Shown piece by piece: positions 1,194-34,528 of a stretch of 34,870 bases of DNA (position 1 is the stretch's first letter; the number at the start of each line of letters is the position of its first letter). Source of the DNA: a virus; the IMG/VR virus record IMGVR_UViG_3300050034_000236, positions 1-34,870 of that record. One strand, written 5' to 3'. Position numbers and translations under genes: made by a program. The notes beneath the pieces are model-generated. The model was given only the letters and a program-made list of their open reading frames with translations, had not been told where the DNA came from and did no database searches.

Positions 1194-2357
1194 ATGATAT
1201 TTAATACATTTGATCCCAACCAAGACATTGTAACGGGACGTGTTACTCGGGTCGCCAGTGGGTTTTGGCCCGACGGGTCTCCAAATTTGGACCAAGGCAA
1301 CCTCTGCACTGATTTTTGGCGACTGACCGGATCAGTCGGTACACCATCATATGGAACATCATATTATGACGTTCGATATACGATGTATTATCTGAATGTG
1401 TTTCCAGATCAAGCAACATACGTTAATTACGACCCATATTTTTCTATTACGTATGGAAATTTTTATGGAAATTTAGGCAGCGGGTCGTTTTCCACCGAAT
1501 CGGCAAGTATTGATGCATCTCCAACTAAAGCTATTTACTCACAGTATAAGAATGTTTTGTTGGCTGATTCTGATGTAAGTGCCATGACCAATGGAATGTT
1601 TTCAATGATTAGTAGTAGTACCACTGTCCAAGCATCAGATATTTGGGTCATTAATTTTTCTGCATATAAAATGAAAGATCGTGTGGATGAAGGATTGCTT
1701 CAACTTAATTTCAGTGGTTCCAATGGAATTTTCACAGTGATCGATGATTCTATTTATACTCAACAAAATCAATCCTCCTATCAAATTATATTAGGAAATC
1801 TTGATAATCCTCCGGCGAGTCCAACTTATGCCGGACTTGGATTATTCTATCCGCAATCGGGAATTGTTGTTTTAAATGCGGCATTGATGGCTCAAATGTT
1901 GGGCATTAATTGTATTACTGGGTCGGGTCCGGGAACAGGTGGCCCATTAACGGGCAGCCCATCAACGAATGGCTCGTGGCCATATAATTCGGGGTCAAGT
2001 GATACACAATATACATACAATCACATGACATTGTTTCAGTCAATGAACACCGCCGGTGGTCAGTTCATGAATGTTCGGAAATCCGAATATGTTCCTTCAA
2101 CGCATTATTTCGTGCGTATTAAGAACCGCGATTTTAATTATAGCAACAATCCCACTTATGTATATGACGGAACCGATGGGAAACATTCGGAAGGGCAAAT
2201 ATACAATTCGGATTTTATTACCGATCCAAAGACTTATATTACGACCGTTGGATTATATGATAACAGTAATAATCTCGTAGCCGTTGCCAAATTGAGCAGA
2301 CCCGTGGTTAAAGATTTTTCAAATGAACTGAATATTCGCGTAAGATTGGATTTTTGA
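1194..2357 (+). CDS. Virion structural protein, 387 aa, with C-terminal module shared with the 804-aa protein
   Basis: Rich in Tyr, Ser, Gly and Asn, as in beta-structured phage tail and baseplate proteins. The C-terminal part carries HYFVRIKNRDFNYSNNPTY, then YITTVGLYDNSNNLVAVAKL and a final NIRVRLDF. The same ending occurs in the protein at 7475-9889 (TIGLYDGLQLVALGKLGSPI, ending MVLKIDF), so both share an assembly or attachment module. I recall similar C-termini in structural proteins of giant T4-like phages. The middle is Gly/Ser-rich (around residues 240-265), probably a flexible linker. No catalytic motif is visible. Confidence 0.65.
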   Translation: MIFNTFDPNQDIVTGRVTRVASGFWPDGSPNLDQGNLCTDFWRLTGSVGTPSYGTSYYDVRYTMYYLNVFPDQATYVNYDPYFSITYGNFYGNLGSGSFSTESASIDASPTKAIYSQYKNVLLADSDVSAMTNGMFSMISSSTTVQASDIWVINFSAYKMKDRVDEGLLQLNFSGSNGIFTVIDDSIYTQQNQSSYQIILGNLDNPPASPTYAGLGLFYPQSGIVVLNAALMAQMLGINCITGSGPGTGGPLTGSPSTNGSWPYNSGSSDTQYTYNHMTLFQSMNTAGGQFMNVRKSEYVPSTHYFVRIKNRDFNYSNNPTYVYDGTDGKHSEGQIYNSDFITDPKTYITTVGLYDNSNNLVAVAKLSRPVVKDFSNELNIRVRLDF

Positions 2358-2729: not shown

Positions 2730-3392
2730 ATGATAAAACACATAAATCCTCAGAACATCCTGAATTCACCGTTTATTGCGGTCAAGGCCCACGCGGCATC
2801 TAATACTGAGAATAATGATTGTATTTTGCTGGAGGATGGTGAGAATTGTCTTGCCCTCGAATATATTGATTACAATGATGGCTTTCCAACTCTCAATTGT
2901 ACTTGCAATATTGCACTGGAACAACAAGCCAATGACAGTTTAAATTGTCAAGAAGGTATAACTGGATCAAGGGCATTTAATAGTGCATCGGACCCCCGCA
3001 ATTTTGATGGGACGTATAAAAGCCTCGTTTATCGAACAATTCAAAATACATTTTATAACACATATCAAAATCCAGTTGAAATCTTCGGAATTGAAAATAT
3101 TGACTTTCCATTAAGTAATACACACCGGAATATTTCGAATCAATTTAGAATATTTTCGATCCCCCCACTTCAGATGGGAGATAAAATACATCCGCAAAGC
3201 GTCCAGATTTATGATGATCTCCTAGATGATAATGTAACTATATTTGACGATGGCGATCAAAATCTTATTGCTGGTTACAATTTATTTTCCAAGGTTCAGG
3301 AAATCCGAAGTTATCCATCCGGCTCCAATCCACAGCAAATTTTCCCCGGGACAAGCAGTCTGGATTGTCCACATTATAGCGAGGCTTCGTGA
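2730..3392 (+). CDS. Virion structural protein, 220 aa
   Basis: Starts behind one of the few clear Shine-Dalgarno sites here (ggagg at about 2713). The central region (DPRNFDGTYKSLVYRTIQNT, SIPPLQMGDKIHPQSVQIYD, then DDNVTIFDDGDQNLIAGYNL) resembles a family I know only as virion structural proteins of large T4-like phages. The N-terminal third holds five Cys between residues 32 and 75, unusual for a phage structural protein. Its stop is 3 bases before the next start. No enzyme motif is visible. Confidence 0.6.
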   Translation: MIKHINPQNILNSPFIAVKAHAASNTENNDCILLEDGENCLALEYIDYNDGFPTLNCTCNIALEQQANDSLNCQEGITGSRAFNSASDPRNFDGTYKSLVYRTIQNTFYNTYQNPVEIFGIENIDFPLSNTHRNISNQFRIFSIPPLQMGDKIHPQSVQIYDDLLDDNVTIFDDGDQNLIAGYNLFSKVQEIRSYPSGSNPQQIFPGTSSLDCPHYSEAS

Positions 3393-3395
3393 CCC

Positions 3396-4961
3396 ATGGC
3401 TACTCATTCTATACCACCATCAGTAACGAAAGTGCCTTCTGGATTTTTGGCTTCCGGTGGAAACATAGCGTTTGATGAGCAGTATTTTTATGTTAATTAT
3501 AATGGATGGCGGCGATTTCCATTGATTCAAACATGCAATTTAGGATTCTCGTTCCCAGCCCCTTCGAATAACGGGGACATCTATTGTGATAATGAATATT
3601 TTTATATCGTAGTTAATTCTGAGTGGTTACGACTTCCGATATTTGTCATAAAACCACACCTTCCAATTCGAGGGAAGGTCCCGACCATAAACATTCAAAA
3701 TACAAAGTTATCTACATTTCCAAGTAACACCGACACATATGGATGTTGGGGAATGATTGCATTTAATGCCGAATATTTTTGCATTTGGGGGCAAGGAAAA
3801 TGGCATAAAGTTCCAATTGTCCCAATGCCAAGTTCTATCTCTCCGGCAATCCCCCTTGATTCAATGTTCAGTGAGTTTATATATGTAACAAAACCATTAA
3901 GCGTTTATACTGAACCCGGGTTTAATGTCAGTTTTAGTGTTAGTGCAAGTAGCTTATACCAACCATTAGAATTTCAATGGTATTTGGGGAAGTTCGCATC
4001 AAATTATATACCACTTTCTGATGGAGGACATATTACTGGTAGTCGAAGCCCAGTCTTATACATTAATACCGCAAGTATTCAAAATTCGGGGTCATATCTT
4101 GTAGAAATATCACACCCAAAAGGATTCAGTTGCACGAGTTCTGCCGCTAATCTTATTATTCTCCCACCAGTTATTTTATCTCAGCCCACATCACAAACTA
4201 ATTACAAAACGGATTTTGACATTTTTTTTGAGTTGTCTGACCAAAATTTCTTTACCGCATCATTTAATATCATGGCATATGGTGGGTTGCTTCCATTGAC
4301 TTATCAATGGTATTCAGGAAGTACACCGTTAATAGATAGTGGACATATAACCGGAAGTTATCTAATCAATGGAAATACATCATCCCTCCAGATCAATAGC
4401 TTGGAATTTAATGAGGATGGTACGTATTGGGTATCCGTGTCAAATGGAGTGACAACAACAAGCAGTGTCGCTCCACTTACAGTTCTCGATAATGTTATAC
4501 CAACTTTTCAAAGTGAATCTATTTATCAGAACGCATCTATTTTGTATGGAAACAGTCAAGATACCGGAATTCCATATAAAGATGATACTGCCCCAATATT
4601 CGGAGTATCCTTTCTCACGGGGTCTTTAACTAACACTGTCATTTCAACTCAAAATTGTAATGACACCGCGTCCACTTCGATTGGATTTGAAAATGGTTAT
4701 ATTGTTAATGTTATTACTCCAATTTATGGTGGATACGAGACCAGTTCTTATAATATAGGCTTTGAAAATGGTTATATTTCCGATGTTGTAATCCCAATAA
4801 CCGCGAGTACAACTTTGGTCGGGTTTCCTGAGACCAGTTCTTACAATATAGGATTTGAGAATGGATACACAACGACGGTTGTCAATCCAATATATTCGAC
4901 TGAAAATAATGATACAACCACAACATTCGGTGTAAGCTTATTGATGGGAAGCGTATTATGA
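3396..4961 (+). CDS. Ig-like and repeat-containing surface or tail protein, 521 aa
   Basis: Three parts are visible. Residues about 22-142 hold three diverged copies of a unit with the pattern D(E/N)xYFYxxxNxxWxRxPI (near 27-44, 65-83 and 124-142). Residues about 170-370 hold two Ig-like domains, each with a core Trp (FQWYLG; YQWYSG), a GGHITGS/SGHITGS element and a terminal DxGTYWVxVSNG-type strand. Residues about 428-505 hold three copies of SxxIGFENGY followed by xxVVxPI. Phage Ig-like domains commonly decorate virions and bind surface carbohydrate weakly. The layout suggests an elongated surface-exposed fibre or decoration protein. The exact location is inference. Confidence 0.65.
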   Translation: MATHSIPPSVTKVPSGFLASGGNIAFDEQYFYVNYNGWRRFPLIQTCNLGFSFPAPSNNGDIYCDNEYFYIVVNSEWLRLPIFVIKPHLPIRGKVPTINIQNTKLSTFPSNTDTYGCWGMIAFNAEYFCIWGQGKWHKVPIVPMPSSISPAIPLDSMFSEFIYVTKPLSVYTEPGFNVSFSVSASSLYQPLEFQWYLGKFASNYIPLSDGGHITGSRSPVLYINTASIQNSGSYLVEISHPKGFSCTSSAANLIILPPVILSQPTSQTNYKTDFDIFFELSDQNFFTASFNIMAYGGLLPLTYQWYSGSTPLIDSGHITGSYLINGNTSSLQINSLEFNEDGTYWVSVSNGVTTTSSVAPLTVLDNVIPTFQSESIYQNASILYGNSQDTGIPYKDDTAPIFGVSFLTGSLTNTVISTQNCNDTASTSIGFENGYIVNVITPIYGGYETSSYNIGFENGYISDVVIPITASTTLVGFPETSSYNIGFENGYTTTVVNPIYSTENNDTTTTFGVSLLMGSVL

Positions 4962-4982: not shown

Positions 4983-6185
4983 ATGAAAAATACCCAAGGA
5001 ATCACACAAACACTTCAAGGTCACTATAAGATTGGTGTCGTTAATGCTGAGACGGACGAAGTCCAATGGCAATATTCCGGAAGCAATCTCGTGCTTAACG
5101 CGGGAATGGATAATTTGTATAATATGTCCGTCGTCGACCAAATGACGTATGGTGTTTGCGGCACTGGTACTCGTCCGAATAACCAATATAGTGGATTGTC
5201 TCAAATTTCTCAATCGGGAAATACAGTTTTATTGTGCAATACAAGCGGGTTAATTACAAATTTTACCTCATCATTTGATGTATATCCAACCATGGTTCAA
5301 GTCGGGGACATGATTTCATGTTCACTTGGACAACAACTTACCGTCACTGATGTCAATTCTAATGGAGTTAACCTGACCGTAACGCCATCCTATACCTTTG
5401 GAGCACAACCATTTGCCATTTATAAAAGTACGCAGACGGGATTGGAATCTGAGGTTTCCCGTTCAAATACTTATCAACCGGGGGCCGGGGCTTGTGGCAC
5501 TACTTTTATCGGGAGTACAGCCGTTCATTTAAGAAGCTATAATTTCCCAGTTCTTGCTACCGATCAATTTTACAATGAAGTGGGTGTAGGATGGTCCACT
5601 GGTCCGGGCAATGTATTTAGTCGGATTCTTTTGCCTTCACCAATTACCGTATATGCTGGATTTTATTTGAGAATTACATATCAATTAACTGTAGTATATA
5701 CCCCGGCATCCTCAAGTGCAGGAAATGTATCCATCGGGGGGTGGACCAATACTAATGGAAGTCAATCTATACAAAATGTCCTCTGTTCATATATTGATAT
5801 AAATGGTAACTCTCAAAATTCAACCGCAGTGCTTGACCCATATTTTATCAATCCAAGTGGATATTATGCCTCTATCTTTGCTTCCGCCAATTCGTCCTTA
5901 CCGGTCTCTGTTGGGAGTGCGGTTGACCGTTCTTCCGTCTGCGTCGTAAGTGGTCAAATGAGTAAAGCGGCCTATGCCAATGGAAATTATTATTGTGATC
6001 GAACGGGAAATACCCCGACCGGAACCAGTCTTTCGGTCGGAAGCATTGGATTTGGTGTAACCGCAAATCCAGCCAATAATTTGAATCAAGCATTTTGTTT
6101 TGTCTTCAATCAACCACCATCATTAATAAATACACAAATTCTTTCGCTTACGTTTCGACACGCTTGGAGCAGAATATTAGGATAA
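4983..6185 (+). CDS. Tail or fibre-like structural protein, copy 1 of a tandem pair, 400 aa
   Basis: Starts QTLQGHYKIGVVNAETDEV and continues to NLVLNAGMDNLYNM and GVCGTGTRPNNQYSGLSQIS. The next gene has the same order of motifs (FKGQYRLQVIDAVSHEIV, NLILNNGMDILGNL, GVVGTGSRPN), so the two are paralogues. Both also share YxSTQxGLExEVxRSxTY, a RSYNFP/RTYDFP element, EVGxxW, FSRIxLP and an FVFNQPP/FLFNQPQ ending. Phage proteins with an N-terminal NxxLNxGMD segment are often annotated as tail proteins. No catalytic motif. Likely a trimeric or multimeric adsorption-structure component; that role is inferred. Confidence 0.62.
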   Translation: MKNTQGITQTLQGHYKIGVVNAETDEVQWQYSGSNLVLNAGMDNLYNMSVVDQMTYGVCGTGTRPNNQYSGLSQISQSGNTVLLCNTSGLITNFTSSFDVYPTMVQVGDMISCSLGQQLTVTDVNSNGVNLTVTPSYTFGAQPFAIYKSTQTGLESEVSRSNTYQPGAGACGTTFIGSTAVHLRSYNFPVLATDQFYNEVGVGWSTGPGNVFSRILLPSPITVYAGFYLRITYQLTVVYTPASSSAGNVSIGGWTNTNGSQSIQNVLCSYIDINGNSQNSTAVLDPYFINPSGYYASIFASANSSLPVSVGSAVDRSSVCVVSGQMSKAAYANGNYYCDRTGNTPTGTSLSVGSIGFGVTANPANNLNQAFCFVFNQPPSLINTQILSLTFRHAWSRILG

Positions 6186-6189
6186 GATT

Positions 6190-7470
6190 ATGAATATGAA
6201 TTACGACGGAGGAATTAACATTGGATTCAAGGGCCAATATCGGCTTCAAGTAATAGATGCAGTGTCACATGAAATTGTATCTGATTATGGGTGGCATCCG
6301 AATCTCATTTTAAATAATGGAATGGATATATTAGGGAATCTTGCTGGACCTTCAATTGGAGTACTCTCGTCATATGGGGTAGTAGGAACTGGTTCAAGAC
6401 CCAATTATATTGCGAGTGGCACATCTACAATAACTCAATCCGGGGCTTATATTGGATTATCCAACCATACGGGATTACTATCATTTACCCAATCGGTATG
6501 GACTAATGGAACGTCATCTTATACCTCTAGTGTTGATATTGGAGATTTAATTGTTGACCAAGACATGAGTCAGTCTATGGTTGTCTGGGTTAGCGGAAGT
6601 CTATTGTATATCACTGGGACTTCACTTAATTATACAACACCCAAAACATTTACCGTTTGGAAAACTTCACAGGCGGGATTACAAGGAGAATATATTCGTT
6701 CCTCGACTTATCTTGTAGGATCAAGTAGTGTACTAGGATGGAATTGTGGGACTGTTGTCAGTGGAAGTACTACAACAATGCGAAGAACGTATGATTTTCC
6801 AGCCGAAACAGCGTCTCAATCCTATACGGAAGTTGGATGTAGTTGGAATGGAATACCGAATGGAGGACTTTTTAGTCGAATTGTACTTCCTCAATCTGTT
6901 AATTTGGCCCCTCAACAATCATTGAGAATGACCTATGATTTATTTACATCCTATGGACCATTCTCGCCAGTTTATAAAACTGCCAGCATAGTAGGATGGC
7001 CCGTATCTCCGGCGACGGATACATCCGGAGTTGAATGTTTACAGAATTTTCTCCCGTCGATGGTTCAAACAGATGGAAACTCAAGTGGTCTGGCGGGGCT
7101 TGATCCCACCGGCTTATATTCATATAATTTCTTTGTATTTGCATCAACGGTTAATACACCATTATACACCGGTTCTGCGGGAGTTAATATGGGAGTTAAC
7201 CGACTCGGAGATTATGCTGTTTCCAATACCACGACATCTACTCCATATGTTTCCGGGACTTATACGACAGTAAAATACGGTACACTGAGTATGTATCAAG
7301 CAGTGTCATCCCAAATTTATAGCATAGGATTTGGACAGATTGCCGGTTATTATCCATACAATTCCGGTGGACAGATTATGGTATTTTTATTTAACCAACC
7401 TCAGACCAAGACAAATCTTCAAACGTTGACATTGGGATGGAGATGGACGTGGAATCGGATCATCCAATAA
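6190..7470 (+). CDS. Tail or fibre-like structural protein, copy 2 of a tandem pair, 426 aa
   Basis: A diverged duplicate of the gene immediately upstream, 4 bases after its stop, with an aggat ribosome site. Homology runs over the whole length, from FKGQYRLQV near the start to the final LTLGWRWTWNRIIQ (copy 1 ends LTFRHAWSRILG). Copy 2 has longer inserts in the C-terminal half (around TTSTPYVSGTYTTVKYG). Diverged but length-conserved duplicates in tail regions often reflect alternative receptor specificity or hetero-oligomer partners; here this is only inference. Confidence 0.62.
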   Translation: MNMNYDGGINIGFKGQYRLQVIDAVSHEIVSDYGWHPNLILNNGMDILGNLAGPSIGVLSSYGVVGTGSRPNYIASGTSTITQSGAYIGLSNHTGLLSFTQSVWTNGTSSYTSSVDIGDLIVDQDMSQSMVVWVSGSLLYITGTSLNYTTPKTFTVWKTSQAGLQGEYIRSSTYLVGSSSVLGWNCGTVVSGSTTTMRRTYDFPAETASQSYTEVGCSWNGIPNGGLFSRIVLPQSVNLAPQQSLRMTYDLFTSYGPFSPVYKTASIVGWPVSPATDTSGVECLQNFLPSMVQTDGNSSGLAGLDPTGLYSYNFFVFASTVNTPLYTGSAGVNMGVNRLGDYAVSNTTTSTPYVSGTYTTVKYGTLSMYQAVSSQIYSIGFGQIAGYYPYNSGGQIMVFLFNQPQTKTNLQTLTLGWRWTWNRIIQ

Positions 7471-7474
7471 TATT

Positions 7475-9889
7475 ATGTATGTTTCAGTAAAAAATGAAAA
7501 TTATGGTTATGCTGTGAGCACGGCGGGTAATTATGTTGCAGTTGCCAATCCAGATTTTTTGCCATATGATCCAACAACTGGAAGTTTTCATACGGGGTCG
7601 GTAGATGTGTTTCTTTATAATAAGTCAAAGGACGAACATGATTATGTCGGCACTCTGTATCAACTTTGGAAAGAGATGGATGTCAGACTGACAACCGAAG
7701 CAAACAATTCATATGACGCGGCTACTCCCCTTGGAGCCGAAGATTCAGGATTAGTTAATTATCCAGACTATAACATTTGCATAGATAAAGACCTTTATAC
7801 GGCATCTATTCAAAATGGATATGGAGCGGCCCTTGATATGTACAACACATATCTCGTGGTTGGAACCCCGTATCTTACTGAAATCACACAAACATCTTCG
7901 AGTTTTATCACCGAATCGTGGGCAATGGCCGAAGTGTATGATTTGGCACGATTGGCATGGACTGCTGGCAGTGCAAGTGCGGCAGCATTTACAATTGCCG
8001 ATCCCGATTTTACAACTGGCGTAGGAGTTATAGGTTCATTCGGACAGTCTATTTCCATAAATAATGATTGGATTGCGGTCGGTGCTCCGTATCATAGCGG
8101 GTCTAATGGATTGGTTTACATGTATCGGAATCAAACCATAGGTAATAATTATTCGTGGTCATTGAGTCAAATAATTCAACCTACCAATCCTATTCCGGGA
8201 GCCGAATTTGGACTTAGTTTGAAACTGAATAAATCTGATGGCCTTCATAGTAATAGTCTCGTAGTTGGTAGCGGTCCTATCGGATCATTGGCTTATTACT
8301 TCGAGTATATTAATAATTCATGGACACAAACACATGTCTTTTCCCCGGACATGTCGGTGTCTCCCATGATCTTCAATCCTGAGTATTATCCACCGTCGAA
8401 TAACCTCGTGATGAATGTTTTCAATGGGTTTGGACAATCGGTTGGATGTTATGGTGACGCGGTTATTGTGGGAGAGCCATATGATCGCATGTTTAATGAA
8501 TATAATGGATCAACATTATATCAGCAGGGATCAACATATATATTTGAACGATGTATCACGGGATCGGGGTGGATGCAGGTTTTAAAGACGTATGGCAATC
8601 CTAAGACCATAGATAACAATCGAATGGGTTGGGCAGTAGATATGTTTGGTTATAATGCAGTATCAGGAGTTCCGAAAATAGACGTAACCAATTTAACTTC
8701 ATGTAAAATTGAAAACACACTAACCCAATTACTTTATTGTGAATCCGATAAGACTGCATTAGTCAATGGACAAACGCTTCTGATTCAGAAAAATACTGGA
8801 TCGGGGGCGTGGGAAATTACGAATGTATATCAAAAAAAGAAAAAATTTCTAAGTCCATATCGTGAGTTTGGGTTTGATGTTGCAGTAGCAGATTATTCCA
8901 TGGTTGTGGGGTCTCCTATGCCGATCTCGGATACCAATCGATATATTAATATTGAAACCACTCAAAGTTCCGGTGTAAATTTGGATGATATTATGGGAAA
9001 ATCTTACATTTATAATTGGAATAATCTTCGAAATCAATTCTACGTTGGAAATGTATTTTATCGGAATGGTAAAATCGTTGTTATGACATCGGGATCAGTA
9101 TTCGATAATCTATTCTCTAATCCAATCAACACGTATAATTATGAATACAACGTGGAATTTAAAAGTGAACATACGATTTACGAAAAACAAATTATTTGCT
9201 CGGTTGACCCGGGAGAGTTCAATGTTAGTACCAATCCAACTGCCATTACTGAGAATATTGCTGCGTTTGATATCAACGGAAATGGACAATTTGATTTTCA
9301 AGATGCGGACATTATTCTTCGGTACATGCAATACAAAAATACAGCTATTCTCGGCCTTCCCATGTCAACCGATTGGAGTTCCTCTATCGTTAAATCTGCG
9401 GATGAAATAAGCCTGTTGAATTGGTATCAAGCCAATACCAATACGAGCACAACCTCAAATCTTCTATCTCAGAGTTTACTGACGTGGGAGACCGTAAATA
9501 CAGCCATGCAAAGTAACTTCGATCTTAATCAAGATAATCGGATTGATGTTCGAGATATGAATATTTTGTGGAAATATTTTACGAATCGCTTAACACAGGA
9601 AAATTATATCACATATATTACCCCAGCATGTAATCGTCGATTATTTAGTGATGTAACCGATTATCTTAATGGATTGAGCGGGAAGTTTTCAATGCCATTA
9701 ATTAAAAGTGATTTTGCGGACTATGAACGCTTGACGGTGCTTGATAAAACCGGATCATTCTTAGCTCCCTATTGCACAACCATTGGATTATATGATGGAT
9801 TGCAATTAGTCGCATTGGGAAAGCTTGGAAGTCCCATTAAGATCACACCTGAGTTGCCAATTAACATGGTTTTAAAAATAGATTTCTGA
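7475..9889 (+). CDS. FG-GAP beta-propeller plus dockerin-type calcium loops, large virion protein, 804 aa
   Basis: Seven FG-GAP-like repeats begin near residues 10, 115, 188, 244, 318, 384 and 464, each a variant of (Y/F)GxSVxxxxxxxxVGxPxxxxxxGxxYxY (for example GSFGQSISINNDWIAVGAPY), predicting a seven-bladed propeller. Two calcium loops follow at residues 599-622 (DINGNGQFDFQDADIILRYM) and 683-706 (DLNQDNRIDVRDMNILWKYF), matching the dockerin F-hand pattern DxNxxxxxDxxDxxxLxxY but with an unusually long spacer of about 60 residues. The last 80 residues match the end of the 387-aa protein at 1194. Such propellers bind ligands or proteins, and dockerins bind cohesins. A host-binding or baseplate role is inferred. 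Confidence 0.7.
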   Translation: MYVSVKNENYGYAVSTAGNYVAVANPDFLPYDPTTGSFHTGSVDVFLYNKSKDEHDYVGTLYQLWKEMDVRLTTEANNSYDAATPLGAEDSGLVNYPDYNICIDKDLYTASIQNGYGAALDMYNTYLVVGTPYLTEITQTSSSFITESWAMAEVYDLARLAWTAGSASAAAFTIADPDFTTGVGVIGSFGQSISINNDWIAVGAPYHSGSNGLVYMYRNQTIGNNYSWSLSQIIQPTNPIPGAEFGLSLKLNKSDGLHSNSLVVGSGPIGSLAYYFEYINNSWTQTHVFSPDMSVSPMIFNPEYYPPSNNLVMNVFNGFGQSVGCYGDAVIVGEPYDRMFNEYNGSTLYQQGSTYIFERCITGSGWMQVLKTYGNPKTIDNNRMGWAVDMFGYNAVSGVPKIDVTNLTSCKIENTLTQLLYCESDKTALVNGQTLLIQKNTGSGAWEITNVYQKKKKFLSPYREFGFDVAVADYSMVVGSPMPISDTNRYINIETTQSSGVNLDDIMGKSYIYNWNNLRNQFYVGNVFYRNGKIVVMTSGSVFDNLFSNPINTYNYEYNVEFKSEHTIYEKQIICSVDPGEFNVSTNPTAITENIAAFDINGNGQFDFQDADIILRYMQYKNTAILGLPMSTDWSSSIVKSADEISLLNWYQANTNTSTTSNLLSQSLLTWETVNTAMQSNFDLNQDNRIDVRDMNILWKYFTNRLTQENYITYITPACNRRLFSDVTDYLNGLSGKFSMPLIKSDFADYERLTVLDKTGSFLAPYCTTIGLYDGLQLVALGKLGSPIKITPELPINMVLKIDF

Positions 9890-10309: not shown

Positions 10310-10483
10310 ATGAAGACAAAACCAAAAATGATAACTAGAGTCACCAAAACTGAATTTGAAACCGATGACGGAGATGTTTATCCGATTCCCTTTGAATTGG
10401 ATGACGTTCCTACAATCGAAGAGTTTCAACGTATTTATGACGAATGGTTTAGGTTGTTCCAACAAAAGGGGTTGATTGAATGA
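10310..10483 (+). CDS. Small acidic protein upstream of tnpA, 57 aa
   Basis: I choose the ATG at 10310, 9 bases after an AGGTG ribosome site, rather than the GTG at 10298. The product (MITRVTKTEFETDDGDVYPI, then ELDDVPTIEEFQRIYDEWF) is acidic, with a beta-hairpin-like N-terminus and a C-terminal helix. The stop overlaps the tnpA start (ATGA at 10480-10483), which implies translational coupling. It may belong to the element as an accessory or regulator of transposition. I do not recognise its family, and standard IS607 elements do not need it. Confidence 0.5.
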   Translation: MKTKPKMITRVTKTEFETDDGDVYPIPFELDDVPTIEEFQRIYDEWFRLFQQKGLIE

Positions 10484-11115
10484 ATAAACCAATTCTATCA
10501 ATTAAAGAAGCTGCTGAGATTCTTGGAGTTTCCGATGAAACGTTACGAAACTATGAACGTGATGGGAAACTATCCCCAACTTATACTGATGGTGGACATC
10601 GTAGATATAAGAGAATTGATATAGAGAAATTCGCAGGAACTTACATTGAACCAGTAACCAAAGTTGGGACAAATCGAGTGGCAATTTATTGTCGGGTCAG
10701 TTCCCATGAACAGAAACAAAAAGGGGATTTGGAGCGTCAAGTAGGGCGTATGACGACTGAGGCACTAAAACGTAATTACTCGATTATTTCTGTTTTTGAT
10801 GAGGTTGGTTCTGGAATGAACGATAGTAGAAAGAAACTTCAAAAACTTTTTGAGTTGGTGGAGTCGAAATCAATTGATATTGTTTTAGTGGAACATAAAG
10901 ATAGATTGTCAAGATTTTGTTTCAATTATTTGGTTTCTTATTTTAAATCGTATGGAATTAAGATTGAATTAGTGGAAGAGATTCTTGGAAAAGGCTACGA
11001 ACAAGAACTCGTCGAAGATATTCTATCGTTGATGGCTTCATTTAGTGCGAAAATTTATGGTCGTAGGTCTAGCCAAAATCGCAAGAAAAAAGAAAAGGAA
11101 GAAGCCAATGCCTAA
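10480..11115 (+). CDS. tnpA: IS607-family serine recombinase TnpA, 211 aa
   Basis: Residues 6-51 form a MerR-like helix-turn-helix (LSIKEAAEILGVSDETLRNY, ending GGHRRYKRIDIEKF). The serine-recombinase domain begins at 66 with VAIYCRVSSHEQ; the nucleophile is expected to be Ser74. SGMNDSRKKL and VEHKDRLSRF are the other conserved catalytic-domain blocks. Length and order fit IS607 TnpA, which cuts and rejoins DNA at GG-type sites through a circular intermediate. All key residues are present, so it is probably active. It overlaps the small gene upstream and tnpB downstream (8 bases), forming one translational unit. Confidence 0.9.
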   Translation: MNKPILSIKEAAEILGVSDETLRNYERDGKLSPTYTDGGHRRYKRIDIEKFAGTYIEPVTKVGTNRVAIYCRVSSHEQKQKGDLERQVGRMTTEALKRNYSIISVFDEVGSGMNDSRKKLQKLFELVESKSIDIVLVEHKDRLSRFCFNYLVSYFKSYGIKIELVEEILGKGYEQELVEDILSLMASFSAKIYGRRSSQNRKKKEKEEANA

Positions 11116-12340
11116 ATTTCTTAAAGGCTACAAGGTTGAATTAGACCCGAACAAGTGTCAAATGACAATGTTCCGAAAGCATTTTGGAGCAAGTAGGTTC
11201 GCATTCAACTATGCCCTTGTAAAGAAAAAAGAAGCATTTGATAAAAAAACAAAGATTCCTAATAATATCGAACTTCACAGAGAATTAAATAAAATCAAAG
11301 GAACTGATGAGTTACCTTGGGCTTACGATTGCTCGAAAACCGCTTTCCAGTCAGGACTTATTAATTGTGACAGGGCATTCCAGAACTTCTTTAGTAAATG
11401 CAAGAAGAAGACAAAAGGAAAGAAAGGATTTCCAAAGTTTAAGTCAAAGAAGAATGAGATTCAATCGTTTAAGTTAGATGGTTCTATTTGGTTGGTAGAT
11501 GATAACCATATTAAATTACCAAGAATCGGTAAAATTAAATTAAAGGAATCTGGTTACATTCTATTGGATGCTGATATAAAATCAGTGACAATTACAAGTA
11601 AATCTGGTAAATGGTTTATGTCATGTCTTATCGAAAATGAGATAAAAATTCTTCCTAAATTAAATAATATAATCGGGGTTGATTTAGGTATCAAAACATT
11701 GGCAACTTGTTCGGATGGAACTACGTTTGAAAATCCAAAAGCATTATCTAAGAATTTAAAGAAGTTAAAAAGAAAGCAGAGACAATTATCAAGAAAAAAG
11801 AAAGGTAGTAATAATTATAAGAAATCAAAGAAAAAGTTAGCAAGATTACACCATAGAATTGCTAATATTAGAAAAGATACTTTACACAAAGCAACAACTA
11901 AGATAATTTCCGAGAACCAAGGGATTGTGTTAGAAAATCTTAAAGTATCAAATATGATGAAAAATCATTGTTTGGCAAGAGCAATTGGTGATGTTGGAAT
12001 GTTTGAGTTTAGGAGACAATTGGAATACAAGGCAAAGTGGTATGGTAGAGAAGTTCAATTTGCAGATACGTTTTATCCTTCATCGAAGACTTGTTGTAAG
12101 TGCGGTTGGAAGAATGAAAATTTGACATTGGGAGACAGAACCTTTAAATGTGAAATTTGTAAGAATGAAATTGACAGAGACTTAAACGCCTCAATCAATT
12201 TGAAGAATTTATATATCGAGAGTTCCTCGAAAATTAACGCCTTTGGAGATGGAAGTCCTGTTTGTTCGGAGTCGAACAAGCATAGTCCATCGTTGAAAAA
12301 GGAATCTAACGGAAAATTTACTTATACTTTAAAAATATGA
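11108..12340 (+). CDS. tnpB: TnpB, RNA-guided nuclease of the IS607-type element, 410 aa
   Basis: I start at ATG 11108, which has aaaggaag upstream and gives the usual TnpB N-terminus (KFLKGYKVELDPNKCQMTMF); the frame is open 21 codons further. The RuvC-like nuclease has Asp192 (IIGVDLGIKTLAT), Glu276 (IVLENLKVSN) and Asp358 (DRDLNA), almost the spacing of the characterised ISDra2 TnpB. A zinc ribbon with CCKCG and CEIC lies between the second and third acidic residues. By family knowledge TnpB cuts DNA guided by an omega-RNA from the element's right end, favouring retention of the element. All catalytic positions are intact. Confidence 0.92.
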   Translation: MPKFLKGYKVELDPNKCQMTMFRKHFGASRFAFNYALVKKKEAFDKKTKIPNNIELHRELNKIKGTDELPWAYDCSKTAFQSGLINCDRAFQNFFSKCKKKTKGKKGFPKFKSKKNEIQSFKLDGSIWLVDDNHIKLPRIGKIKLKESGYILLDADIKSVTITSKSGKWFMSCLIENEIKILPKLNNIIGVDLGIKTLATCSDGTTFENPKALSKNLKKLKRKQRQLSRKKKGSNNYKKSKKKLARLHHRIANIRKDTLHKATTKIISENQGIVLENLKVSNMMKNHCLARAIGDVGMFEFRRQLEYKAKWYGREVQFADTFYPSSKTCCKCGWKNENLTLGDRTFKCEICKNEIDRDLNASINLKNLYIESSSKINAFGDGSPVCSESNKHSPSLKKESNGKFTYTLKI

Positions 12341-15015: not shown

Positions 15016-18000
15016 ATGAATATATTAAAAACAAATCTTAAAAAAATAACACATATATTACATATATCCGATGTACATATACGACTCAATAAGCGAATAG
15101 ATGAATATAAAGAAATATTTAATAAGTTGTATGTCGAAATTCAATCCTCTCCGAAATCATCTATTGTGGTTCTAGCCGGGGATACGTGTCATAACAAAAA
15201 TCAATTAAGTCCAGAATGCGTTCAATTGATTTCGGAATTATTCGTAAATATAGCCAATATCAGGCCATTAATTCTTATAGCTGGTAATCACGATGCAATT
15301 CTTTCCAATAAAAGTCGAATGGATTCTTTATCCCCAATAGTTAGTGCTCTGAATCATTCCAATATTTATTATCTTAAAGAAACCGGATTATATGGATTCG
15401 GAAACATTTTATTTAATAATATGTCGGTGTTTGATTCTCCCGACAAATACATTCTTGGAAAAGATATTCCATCTATATATCGCAATCAATATGACCACAT
15501 TATTGCATTATTTCACGGAGCCGTAGATGGATCAGCATTAGACACCGGATATTCAATTCAAAACCCGTCGATAATGCTACCATTATTTGACAATCATCAT
15601 TTGGCGTTATTGGGAGATATACATTTAGCTCAAACTCTACAGGACTATGATGATGACAAAAATAAACCGTGTGTACGGTTCTGTGGGAGTTTAATCCAAC
15701 AGAACTTTGGGGAAAAGTTAAACGGGCATGGTTATTCTCTATGGGATTTATCTGATTATTCGTATCAGCATCATGAAATTCCCAATGAATTTGGATATTT
15801 CACGGTTGAAATTCACAAGGGTCAACTAACTACAGATATTTCTAAATTGCCCAAATCGTGTCGTCTTCGTGCCCAATGCTATGAGAGCATTGTGTCCGAG
15901 GTAAAAAAAGTCATTGCCGACATTAAAATGAAAACACAGGTAATAGAAACTGCCTTTGTTCGTATGGATCAAGAACGAGATAAGAAAGATATCATCCCGT
16001 TATGTAAGGACATTGTGTTGGCGGATTTAACCACGGTCGAATATCAAGAACGATTATTGACCGAGTTTCTTAAGAAAAAATTAAATATTGATTCCGCCAT
16101 TAAAATCAAAGAGATTCTCAAGATCAATAAGGAAACTAATCTCCTTATTCAACGGGATGATTTTGCTCGCAATTTGAAATGGAAACCAATACGATTTGAA
16201 TGGGATAATATGTTCACCTATGGGGAAGGAAATGTCATTGATTTTACCCAAATGAATGGAGCATATGGAATCTTTGGGGCTAACAGATCGGGCAAATCAA
16301 GTATTTTATCAGCACTGATTTTTTGTTTATTCGATAAATTTGACAGAGGATATAAGGGAGTACATGTTCTCAACGTTCAAAAAACATCGTTCAAATGCAA
16401 ATTGGAGTTTGAAATTTCAGGCGTTAGATATTTCATTGAACGTACAGGTAGTACCACTCGCTCAGGAAATGTCAAAGTGGATGTTCGATTCTGGAAAGTA
16501 ACGAATGGGGTTGAAGAAGATTTACATGGAACCGCTCGGAGGGATACCAATGACATTATTCGAGACTATGTCGGAACGTATGAAGACTTCGTCATTACTG
16601 CCGTATCATTTCAAAATGCCAAGAATCTGACCTCGTTTATTGATATGGGCAATAGTGAGCGGAAGGATTTATTGGTACAATTTATTGGTCTTAATATTTT
16701 TGACAGACTGCATGAATCCGCCGGAGATAGAAGTAAAGAATTAGTAACCATACTTAAGACTCACAAGGATACAGATTATCAATTTGAGGTTCAACAAAAC
16801 GAAACCGCGTTGGCCCGTGCCAACACGTTGTTCGTCGAGGCACAAAATCAATCGAATAATCTGACCAAACAAATCGCGGCGGTCAATGAACAAATTCTAG
16901 TGGAAAGTCAGAATATAATTAAACTGGATACAAATGTCCCAACCGATCTATCTGCATTGAAAGCTCGGCAGGTTACAGCAGAAGCCACTCTCATAACAAA
17001 ACGAAAGTTTATTGCCGATACTAAAAATATAATGGCAGAACAAGAAGCCCATCTCGCCGAAATTAATACGGAAATTGAGAAAATTGAGAAATCCGACTTT
17101 ATCGAGGCTCACAAAACCCATGAGGAATTGAAGAATAAGCTTATTGATCTTAAGCAAAAAATTGACCTTAAAAAAGTAGAAATTAAAGGCAAACTTGATA
17201 AAGTAGCCCGGCTGGATAAATATGAGTATAATCCCGATTGCAAGTATTGCACCAATAATGCATTTGTAAAAGATGCCACTAAAGCTAAAAGCGAACTGAT
17301 TGGTGATAAAGCGGAAACCGATCAAATGCTAACAGCATGGAGTGCCTTACAAATTGAATCATCGAAATATGATTGGGTAGCTCAGTCCTACGAGACTTAT
17401 ACTCGTCTGTTGACTGAACGAGGAACGATTAAAGATAAATGTGCAACCGCAAGCAAAAGCATCATCATTGCGATCAATGAGCTTGAACGTCTCGATGCTG
17501 GGACGAACGCCGTTATGCAGCAGATTGAAGTTTATCATCGTAATGAAGTAGCAGTTGAAAATAATATCAAGGTGCAATCTAAGGTCAATGCCTTTAGAAT
17601 CGCTTTATCTAAACTCGATGTACAATTTCAATCTCAGCAACAATCATTGATGGAGATTTCCGGTCAACGAGAATTATTCCGGTCAACCATCGAAACCCTC
17701 CAAAAAACCATTGCCGAGGTTATGGCGATGGAAACGGAACTTGATTCATATCAAAATTATTTACAAGCAGTGGGAAGAGATGGCATTCCCTATCAAGTTA
17801 TTTGTAATACGGTTCCTGAAATTGAGAAAGAAGTCAATGCTATTCTCAGCCAAGTCGTGGATTATACCATTCAGTTCGAAACAGATGGTAAGAATATCAT
17901 CCCAAACGTGGTATATGAGCATGGACAATGGCCAATCGAATTAACATCGGGTTACGAACGATTTGTGGCAAGTGTGGCTATTCGGGTGGCTCTAACGAAT

Positions 18001-18219
18001 GTGTCCAATCTTCCGAAATGTAATTTCCTCGCATTAGATGAAGGATTTTCGACACTCGACCCAGAGCATCTGTCATCAATGTCAACCCTATTCTCAATCC
18101 TTAAAAATTATTATGACTTCACATTTATTATAAGTCATAATGATACAATAAAAGACTTTGTGGATAAAACCATTGAAATTACACACGACGGAACACTTGC
18201 AAAAGTAGTATTTGAGTGA
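15016..18219 (+). CDS. Single-chain Mre11-Rad50 (SbcD-SbcC, T4 gp47-gp46) fusion, 1067 aa
   Basis: Residues 11-270 are an Mre11/SbcD metallophosphoesterase: ISDVHI (Asp19, His21), LAGDT (Asp56), AGNHD (Asn91, His92), LFHG (His167) and LGDIH (His203). Residues about 390-1067 are a Rad50/SbcC ATPase: Walker A GANRSGKSS (421-429), a Q-loop-like SFQNAKNL, long coiled coils interrupted by a CKYC zinc hook (Cys742, Cys745), signature ELTSGYERF and Walker B FLALDEGF (Asp1008, Glu1009). T4 and most bacteria encode these as two proteins. No internal stop or frameshift separates them. Expected role: ATP-driven end resection for recombination-dependent replication and repair. Confidence 0.93.
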   Translation: MNILKTNLKKITHILHISDVHIRLNKRIDEYKEIFNKLYVEIQSSPKSSIVVLAGDTCHNKNQLSPECVQLISELFVNIANIRPLILIAGNHDAILSNKSRMDSLSPIVSALNHSNIYYLKETGLYGFGNILFNNMSVFDSPDKYILGKDIPSIYRNQYDHIIALFHGAVDGSALDTGYSIQNPSIMLPLFDNHHLALLGDIHLAQTLQDYDDDKNKPCVRFCGSLIQQNFGEKLNGHGYSLWDLSDYSYQHHEIPNEFGYFTVEIHKGQLTTDISKLPKSCRLRAQCYESIVSEVKKVIADIKMKTQVIETAFVRMDQERDKKDIIPLCKDIVLADLTTVEYQERLLTEFLKKKLNIDSAIKIKEILKINKETNLLIQRDDFARNLKWKPIRFEWDNMFTYGEGNVIDFTQMNGAYGIFGANRSGKSSILSALIFCLFDKFDRGYKGVHVLNVQKTSFKCKLEFEISGVRYFIERTGSTTRSGNVKVDVRFWKVTNGVEEDLHGTARRDTNDIIRDYVGTYEDFVITAVSFQNAKNLTSFIDMGNSERKDLLVQFIGLNIFDRLHESAGDRSKELVTILKTHKDTDYQFEVQQNETALARANTLFVEAQNQSNNLTKQIAAVNEQILVESQNIIKLDTNVPTDLSALKARQVTAEATLITKRKFIADTKNIMAEQEAHLAEINTEIEKIEKSDFIEAHKTHEELKNKLIDLKQKIDLKKVEIKGKLDKVARLDKYEYNPDCKYCTNNAFVKDATKAKSELIGDKAETDQMLTAWSALQIESSKYDWVAQSYETYTRLLTERGTIKDKCATASKSIIIAINELERLDAGTNAVMQQIEVYHRNEVAVENNIKVQSKVNAFRIALSKLDVQFQSQQQSLMEISGQRELFRSTIETLQKTIAEVMAMETELDSYQNYLQAVGRDGIPYQVICNTVPEIEKEVNAILSQVVDYTIQFETDGKNIIPNVVYEHGQWPIELTSGYERFVASVAIRVALTNVSNLPKCNFLALDEGFSTLDPEHLSSMSTLFSILKNYYDFTFIISHNDTIKDFVDKTIEITHDGTLAKVVFE

Positions 18220-30507: not shown

Positions 30508-30537
30508 TTGATTCTCCTCCCATGGTGTTGCTATACT
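30508..30537 (+). promoter_or_regulatory. Sigma70-like promoter with extended -10
   Basis: TTGATT (30508-30513), an 18-base spacer and TGCTATACT, an extended -10 with TATACT at 30532-30537. A transcript starting near 30544 excludes the ATG at 30522 and supports ATG 30549 as the start of the purine enzyme. It lies directly after the stop of the 370-aa gene. Confidence 0.6.
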
Positions 30538-30548
30538 TCTCAAGTATT

Positions 30549-31538
30549 ATGCAACAATTTCTATTGAATTATCAAGACATTATTCTTCGTCACAAAAAAT
30601 CAGTGGTTTTTTCGAGGTCGGAGTGTAATATTACCTCCAAACTTGGACCCAAAACATTTGACGCTCCAGTATGTTGCAGCAATATGAAATCCATTCTGAC
30701 TCCAAATATTTGCAAAGTATTTGATGATAGAAATTGGTTTTATGTTTATCATAGAATTGATGGTATAAAAGATGTCGAGTCATTTATTGACCATGCTCAG
30801 ACATGTTGGAATCTCGAAACTGATTCAAAAATGAAATGGAACACTATTTCTATATCTATTGGAATTGGGAATGAATGGATTCAAGCATTACAACAATGGG
30901 CAACCAATGAGTGGAGAATTGATTATATTACAATAGATGTAGCATTGTCATATAATGATAATATCATCCCAACTATAAATGCCATTAAAAAATATTATCC
31001 GAACGCCTATCTTATTGTTGGAAATGGATGCATACCAGAATGGATAACTTGGCTAGAAGGATTGGGGGTTAATTGTGCTAAAATTGGTATTGGCGTCTCC
31101 AAATCATGCCGAACCAGACAATATACTGGATTCGGGTCAACAACCGTGTCAGATTTAATCGAATGTGTTAACGTCGCTAAAGAAATAGATATTATGAGTG
31201 ATGGCGGATTAACGGTTGATAATAACGGAGAGGTATGGATCGGAGACATAAACAAAGCTTTAGTATTAGGAAGTAATTTTGTAATGACCGGAGCAGCATT
31301 TAGCAAATGTATAGATTCACAATCAGTAGTCAATGGATATTTTGGAAATGCTTCGGTTGCGGCAAAGGGAAATAGAAATCATATTGAAGGTACAAATGTT
31401 CAACTTGTAACGAACGGTCTTACCATAAATCAAATGTGCGATTTAATTGAGGATAGTATTAAATCAGGAACAAGTTACGCGGGCGGAACGAATTTATCGG
31501 CGTTTAATTCTGTCGAGTGGAACCTTATTCGAAATTAG
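30549..31538 (+). CDS. IMP dehydrogenase / GMP reductase-like enzyme, 329 aa
   Basis: Typical IMPDH/GMPR barrel motifs appear in order: SRSECNITSKLG then APVCCSNM; DYITIDVALSYND; YLIVGNGC; CAKIGIGVSKSCRTRQYTGF with catalytic Cys187; DIMSDGGL (218-220 as DGG); VMTGAAFS; and a GYFGNAS..AKG..IEG block like the flap region of GMP reductases. There is no CBS domain, so it is nearer to GuaC or to CBS-less IMPDH. The reaction would be NADPH-dependent GMP to IMP, or IMP to XMP. I start at ATG 30549 because a promoter overlaps the earlier ATG (30522). It has no partner purine genes here. Confidence 0.8.
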   Translation: MQQFLLNYQDIILRHKKSVVFSRSECNITSKLGPKTFDAPVCCSNMKSILTPNICKVFDDRNWFYVYHRIDGIKDVESFIDHAQTCWNLETDSKMKWNTISISIGIGNEWIQALQQWATNEWRIDYITIDVALSYNDNIIPTINAIKKYYPNAYLIVGNGCIPEWITWLEGLGVNCAKIGIGVSKSCRTRQYTGFGSTTVSDLIECVNVAKEIDIMSDGGLTVDNNGEVWIGDINKALVLGSNFVMTGAAFSKCIDSQSVVNGYFGNASVAAKGNRNHIEGTNVQLVTNGLTINQMCDLIEDSIKSGTSYAGGTNLSAFNSVEWNLIRN

Positions 31539-33312: not shown

Positions 33313-33341
33313 TTGACAATATAAATGAAACGTGATACGAT
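33313..33341 (+). promoter_or_regulatory. Consensus sigma70 promoter of the nucleotidyltransferase gene
   Basis: TTGACA (33313-33318), exactly 17 bases, then TACGAT (33336-33341). The ATG at 33347 is 5 bases after the -10 box, so the transcript should begin at the start codon itself. This also argues against the in-frame GTG at 33332, which lies inside the promoter. Confidence 0.7.
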
Positions 33342-33346
33342 TCAGT

Positions 33347-34528
33347 ATGAATGAATTTTTAGAAACAAATACCATCTATGTGACCCTTCATGGTTCACAA
33401 GCATATGGTCTCCAGAATGATTTTTCTGATGTGGATTTAAAGGGAATTTGCATACCGCCGCCATATGTCGAAAATCATCTCTATCATCGGTTTGACCAAG
33501 CTCAAAATTCTTTGTGGCTTGAGAATAAACTCAGTTATTTAAAAAATCCAAGAAATCCCAAATTAGAGAGTGAGATTTATTCCCTTCGTAAATTTTTTCT
33601 CCTTGCAGCAGAAGTTAATCCGAATGTAATCGAATTGCTGTTTACGCTCCCGGAACATCATTTTATTATGCATCCGATCATGGAAAACCTACTGGCCAAT
33701 CGCATGATGTTCGTGTCTAACAAGGCACGTTACACATTTGCGGGGTATGCATGTGCTCAGGCGAAGAAAATCGAACGGCACCGGGAGTGGATTGTTCTCG
33801 GTGAGGTCCAGCCACCCAAGCGAGAAGACTTCGGACTCCCATTGATTCCAGAACCGGGATTATCCGAAGTTCTTGGTCATATTAAGTCTACTGTCGAAAA
33901 GTGGAATCTTAATCAATTTCCATTGGAAGAAATGGATCGATCAGAACTCAAGGATACTATATGGGAATTAATGAGTAATATAACGGAGAATGAAATCTCG
34001 GTAGCTAATTGGCCCGACATATATTCCGACGCCGTTATTCATAAAATGGCCAAAGAGTTCAACCTCAAAGATGAATTAGTTCACTATATTTATTGTGAAC
34101 GTGCTTACGCCAAAGCTAAGCAGGTATATGATTCTTGGATTTCATGGAAGAAAGAACGCAACCCAGCCCGACGTGAATTGGAAGAGAAAAGTGGTTACGA
34201 TACCAAACATGCCAGCCACTTGGTCCGACTTATGCGTATGGGGTACGAAATAATCACAGAAGGCAAAGTCATCGTGAAGCGTCCTGACGCAGAAGAATTA
34301 CTTGCCATCAAAAATGGATCGTGGTCATTTGAAAAGGTCATGCAGTTTAAGGACGAAATGGAAGCAAAGCTGGATGCGGAGTATAATCGCCAGAAAAAAC
34401 TTATTGCCGAAGGCAAACCAACACCTCTTCCACGTGATGTTAACAAAGTAAAACTCAACGAACTTTATCACCAACTCTATAATGAGTATTGGTATGGTTC
34501 CGGATATATTGCAACACTTAAACACTAA
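33347..34528 (+). CDS. Nucleotidyltransferase of the DNA polymerase beta superfamily, 393 aa
   Basis: The N-terminus YVTLHGSQAYGLQNDFSDVD has the superfamily's hGS motif (Gly16, Ser17) and the metal-binding DxD (Asp28, Asp30). A long helical remainder follows (REWIVLGEVQPPKREDFGLP; ELVHYIYCERAYAKAKQVYD; NELYHQLYNEYWYGSGYIAT). Related large phages carry enzymes of this type annotated as predicted nucleotidyltransferases, some linked to RNA repair; the substrate is unknown. Start is ATG 33347, since the GTG at 33332 lies inside a consensus promoter. The stop shares its last base with the next start. Confidence 0.78.
   Translation: MNEFLETNTIYVTLHGSQAYGLQNDFSDVDLKGICIPPPYVENHLYHRFDQAQNSLWLENKLSYLKNPRNPKLESEIYSLRKFFLLAAEVNPNVIELLFTLPEHHFIMHPIMENLLANRMMFVSNKARYTFAGYACAQAKKIERHREWIVLGEVQPPKREDFGLPLIPEPGLSEVLGHIKSTVEKWNLNQFPLEEMDRSELKDTIWELMSNITENEISVANWPDIYSDAVIHKMAKEFNLKDELVHYIYCERAYAKAKQVYDSWISWKKERNPARRELEEKSGYDTKHASHLVRLMRMGYEIITEGKVIVKRPDAEELLAIKNGSWSFEKVMQFKDEMEAKLDAEYNRQKKLIAEGKPTPLPRDVNKVKLNELYHQLYNEYWYGSGYIATLKH

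Follow-up and report, generated by a model that had tools for sequence, protein, structure and literature searches.

A seven-bladed FG-GAP propeller protein of large environmental phages with two predicted calcium-binding loops inside a shared C-terminal module

Introduction

FG-GAP propellers are known in enzymes and in inert structural proteins as well as in receptors such as integrin alpha, and DxDxDG calcium cages are not universal among them. FG-GAP-like propellers have also been recognised in phages; proteins of Cyanophage S-TIM5 (H6WG31), Agrobacterium phage Atu_ph07 (A0A2L0UZX4) and Vibrio phage nt-1 have the propeller fold or are annotated as FG-GAP. The integrin alpha propeller (PDB codes 4irz, 3fcu and 9ckv) has seven FG-GAP repeats, and several of its blades carry a DxDxDG cage.

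EF-type calcium loops are likewise well described, among them the paired loops of type I dockerins (PF00404; PDB codes 4fl4, 2y3n and 1daq). In these, two loop-helix DxNxDxxxxxxD motifs, each with an exit helix at position 10, form a compact two-repeat domain of about 60–70 residues with the loops 32–36 residues apart. Mention of dockerins in phages is sporadic, concerning an E. coli phage tail protein that resembles PDB 2wz8 (PMC5967307) and gene 40 of Vibrio phage VvAW1 (PMC3558961). The literature searched contained no paper on 'dockerin domain' and 'jumbo phage' together.

Here we describe an 804-residue protein in which a propeller and a pair of such loops occur together. It is encoded in a viral sequence of 34,870 nucleotides (IMG/VR record IMGVR_UViG_3300050034_000236), referred to as the window. 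To judge from the libraries and papers that we searched, a part of the whole literature, neither the architecture nor the loop-bearing domain, for which there is no fold match, nor the extent of the family seems to have been described.

Results

The gene has an ATG start and occupies 7475..9886 on the + strand, with the stop codon extending to 9889. Residues 1–515 (7475..9019, +) form the propeller. The remainder is a C-terminal module in two halves, separated by a helical domain that carries the calcium loops (residues 591–748, 9245..9718, +). The first half of the module (residues 516–590, FYVGNVFYRNGKIVVMTSGS ... GEFNVSTNPTA, 9020..9244, +) was delimited by alignment with phage homologues that have no dockerin-like loops, the second (residues 749–804, TTIGLYDG..LVALGKLGSPIKI...KIDF, 9719..9886, +) by its presence in the product of the open reading frame at 1194..2357 and in other phages. 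A signal-peptide-like hydrophobic start was not found in the protein, the N-terminus of which already lies within blade 1. Neither PHROGs nor NCBIfam supplies a name for it or for its structural neighbours at 341–988 and 1194–2357.

Seven FG-GAP repeats had been read from the sequence by the first-pass annotation, which expected structure prediction to give a seven-bladed propeller, and both statements hold. Pfam FG-GAP_2 matches at 5.8e-13, over the curated cut-off, and the repeats start at residues 10, 116, 189, 245, 319, 384 and 465, placing the blades near 7502, 7820, 8039, 8207, 8429, 8624 and 8867 on the + strand. When each blade was scored against a profile built from the others, six of the seven stood out, with scores reached by 0–37 of 2000 shuffles. 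Blade 4, which has a long loop between FG and GAP, went undetected in this test (927 of 2000 shuffles reach its score); its assignment rests on position and on the structure model. For the full-length protein the AlphaFold model has a mean pLDDT of 69, with propeller blocks mostly between 50 and 95, and matches the integrin alpha headpiece with a best E of 4.8e-13 over about 540 columns and a target TM-score up to about 0.6. Sequence identity to the integrin propeller is only about 13%, the DxDxDG cage is present in none of the seven blades (residues 1–515) and, unlike integrin alpha, the propeller here sits on a phage module. The likeness to the S-TIM5, Atu_ph07 and nt-1 proteins is seen over the propeller only.

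Several relatives have extra segments inside the propeller region. One of them (L011, 3499–6543) carries a large addition near the propeller N-terminus that looks, by eye, like a discoidin-type sugar-binding domain and has no Pfam name. A protein of about 3,690 codons in Sinorhizobium phage Phosso (L039, 9911–20843) matches the FG-GAP region, one of six such places in that record.

Two loops of the EF-hand/dockerin type, with a spacer of about 60 residues, had also been noted. Dockerin_1 matches at 1.3e-7, over the curated cut-off, and the start-to-start distance of 84 residues is consistent with that spacer. Loop 1 comprises residues 599–610 (DINGNGQFDFQD, 9269..9304, +) and loop 2 residues 683–694 (DLNQDNRIDVRD, 9521..9556, +), each assigned from Dockerin_1, pattern and alignment. 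In the six frames of the window the pattern DxNx[DN]xxxDxxD is found at these two places and nowhere else; among 20,000 shuffled versions of the protein there was none with two copies. In the model an exit helix follows each loop directly, beginning at residue 608 after loop 1 and at residue 692 after loop 2, which is loop position 10 in both cases. Both loops have oxygen ligands at the EF-hand positions 1, 3, 5, 9 and 12. Position 12 of EF-hands is usually Glu; here it is Asp, as in dockerins.

In the 34 closer members of the family each of the ten coordinating positions has a side chain with oxygen; nearly all of these are Asp or Asn, the exceptions being Ser or Glu. Eight of the ten positions are invariant, as against 55 of the 306 alignment columns (p 2e-5, or 2e-6 when tested within the insert), values that are optimistic because the sequences are related. 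Positions 1 and 12 of loop 2 are invariant in all 46 aligned members, and positions 1, 3, 9 and 12 of this loop are retained in more distant ones. In one branch (L106, L112, L113, L124 and L126) loop 1 is degenerate with loss of coordinating residues, and three other members (L103, L108 and L109) have a loop 2 without the residue at position 5; two bound calcium ions would therefore not be essential across the family. We regard the loops as canonical EF-hand/dockerin-type loops, predicted from their sequence to bind calcium.

The C-terminal module was said to be shared with another structural protein. That is the case: the neighbour encoded at 1194..2357 (+) aligns with the same module and has no insert. 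The alignment also took in the dockerin-less homologues immuto35A_165 and _164 of Flavobacterium phage immuto, WWT39517 of Microcystis phage Mel-JY01, Rm378p128 of phage RM378 and a 304-residue open reading frame of LR756508, a 484-kb huge phage. These share the conserved stretches VGNxFYxxGxIVI (harder to make out in immuto _164 and in RM378), EFNxSxNP and PYITTxGLYDxxxxLxAVGKL, together with a similar gene neighbourhood. They have no helical insert and no recognised propeller in front of the module, where Mel-JY01 has a region that is LamG-like by eye and the remaining homologues have other sequence. Between EFNxSxNP and PYITTxGLYD, where the helical domain sits in the 804-residue protein, they have a short linker, so the domain was either inserted into the shared module or lost from it. 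Given the number of lineages without the domain, insertion that splits the module is the simpler reading.

A model of residues 499–804, built with 46 sequences, gives pLDDT values of 89–97 over about residues 599–738, which form an all-helical domain of some 145 residues; the module itself is modelled poorly, mostly below 50. Foldseek comparison of this model with the PDB, in which small targets can be missed, returned no match to dockerins or to other folds (best E 0.95), and searches with the insert alone gave no convincing match among sequenced phages. Mean pairwise identity in the family is 66–68% for the module, 55% for the insert and 47% for the propeller, and residues 516–590 are the most conserved part. 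A gradient that falls from module to insert to propeller would suit an anchor at the C-terminus.

A first scan of IMG/VR found 21 relatives with 39–69% identity. Searching with a profile made from the last 305 residues extended this to 223 stretches that encode relatives, of which 80 were kept and 55 distinct proteins read; scans started from single divergent proteins contributed few further loci. FG-GAP_2 is present in all eight divergent members scanned with Pfam, and some relatives lie on contigs of 250–369 kb. Two scans of 84,980 cellular genomes found no relative, and a cellular origin or a prophage was rejected on this basis. Among sequenced phages there is no relative of the whole protein at E 1e-5, and at E up to 10 the matches are to the module or to parts of the propeller only. 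The family is a large one, found in environmental giant phages.

The gene keeps a fixed position in these phages. Upstream, nearly all relatives have structural genes for 215 and 387 residues, the equivalents of 341–988 and 1194–2357, followed by variable fibre-type genes; downstream are RuvC-like, primase and SbcCD genes. In the window the fibre-type genes immediately upstream are an adjoining pair (4983–6185 and 6190–7470, spanning 4983..7470, +) that match phrog_4176 'tail fiber protein' at 1.4e-22 and 4e-17. The terminase has its nearest sequenced relatives in phages immuto (50%) and Mel-JY01 (47%) and in LR756508 (46%). Phage immuto has its module genes flanked on one side by an annotated baseplate wedge gene, an assignment backed by PHROG, and on the other by a tail fibre gene. 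The phage structural context that had been proposed is borne out by the shared module and by the position near tail-fibre genes, and the same two features suggest a location in the virion.

Other genes of the window deserve brief mention. A 220-residue product (2730–3392) has homologues in phages of the group with varied C-terminal extensions, in several copies in some genomes, and is possibly a fibre-base module. The adjacent gene (3396–4961) encodes immunoglobulin domains with repeated 'SYNIGFENGY' motifs at the C-terminus and gives weak matches to Hoc-like head decoration proteins. Shortly downstream of the propeller gene is an IS607-type element (10480–12340), in which a TnpB-like gene follows and overlaps a MerR/serine-resolvase gene; it is missing at that position in most relatives. 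One 1067-residue protein (15016–18219) unites a phosphoesterase like SbcD with an ATPase like SbcC; the fusion is full-length in most relatives and split by intervening open reading frames in two (L038 and L004). Near the packaging genes there is an IMP dehydrogenase/GMP reductase-like gene (30522–31538, 6.2e-26), and 33332–34528 encodes an RlaP-type nucleotidyltransferase, of an RNA repair pathway family (1.1e-14).

Discussion

We favour, at a probability of about 0.5, a role for the 804-residue protein in host attachment as a core structural protein in this clade, whose members are large environmental phages with a terminase of the T4 type. Its place would be next to the tail fibres, on the periphery of tail or baseplate. 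The C-terminal module, common to proteins of the gene cluster, would anchor it to the particle, and the integrin-alpha-like propeller would face outward and bind a ligand on the host surface. During assembly, in the calcium-poor cytoplasm, the insert may be unloaded; calcium outside the cell would then order it, so that the propeller becomes fixed relative to the particle or attachment becomes calcium-dependent. Calcium-dependent assembly, raised when the sequence was first read, or calcium-dependent ordering is plausible on this basis. A bolder form of the proposal is that the insert represents a new calcium-binding fold acting as a calcium-gated joint of anchor and propeller, so that the phage would become able to attach only once set free in water that contains calcium; we consider this unlikely.

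Calcium sites of phage tail proteins are commonly structural, and the ions may do no more here than stabilise the insert at fixed sites, with neither switching nor docking, the protein itself being a passive component of the tail, structural or decorative. Such a role is a real possibility, if a somewhat doubtful one. It agrees with the confident folding of the insert as a single helical domain in the model, and with the retention of the whole insert where loop 1 is degenerate in one branch and loop 2 altered in another. In the main branch the coordinating residues are more conserved than other parts of the insert, which is compatible with both views. Against a passive role, the propeller changes faster than the anchor, as it would if it faced a ligand. 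Should the protein instead lie outside the particle, it could be a cytoplasmic scaffold or a helper in tail-fibre assembly. Genes for fibre-assembly helpers are often found beside fibre genes, as this gene is, but the C-terminal module is common to other genes of the structural cluster and calcium loops would be of little use in the cytoplasm, so we judge a non-virion role improbable.

Docking to a cohesin, on another virion protein or on a cohesin-bearing host surface, had been suggested from the dockerin-type loops, and it has some attraction. Dockerin_1 matches 38 of the 46 members at E ≤ 0.01, and the best PDB sequence matches of the family profile are mostly dockerins (4fl4, 2y3n and 1daq, E about 0.001–0.003). 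The domain around the loops departs from that template. From PDB alignments the loops of solved dockerins are 32–36 residues apart, as against 84 here and 74–92 across the 46 members; each loop matches Dockerin_1 separately, mostly over the second half of the model; and additional helices, between the loops and also following them, make a larger helical domain in place of the compact two-repeat one. The Ser/Thr pair at loop positions 10–11 that is typical of clostridial dockerins is missing from both loops. Cohesin searches were negative at E ≤ 1 for 17 related records (51–369 kb) and at E ≤ 0.001 for the record of the window itself, any of which may be incomplete. With the cohesin searches of these 18 phage records, the loop spacing and the fold search against the PDB all pointing the same way, cohesin docking was set aside as the leading view, and we hold a true dockerin to be very improbable. 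The case shows how misleading a dockerin match can be: the loops themselves are genuine, but the domain that bears them diverges from the dockerin plan.

The favoured reading, a calcium-ordered attachment protein at the tail or baseplate periphery, gives a testable anatomy of anchor, calcium insert and outward propeller to a core protein that is widespread in uncultured giant phages. If calcium gating proves true, calcium-dependent adsorption of these phages would have a defined molecular site in the insert.
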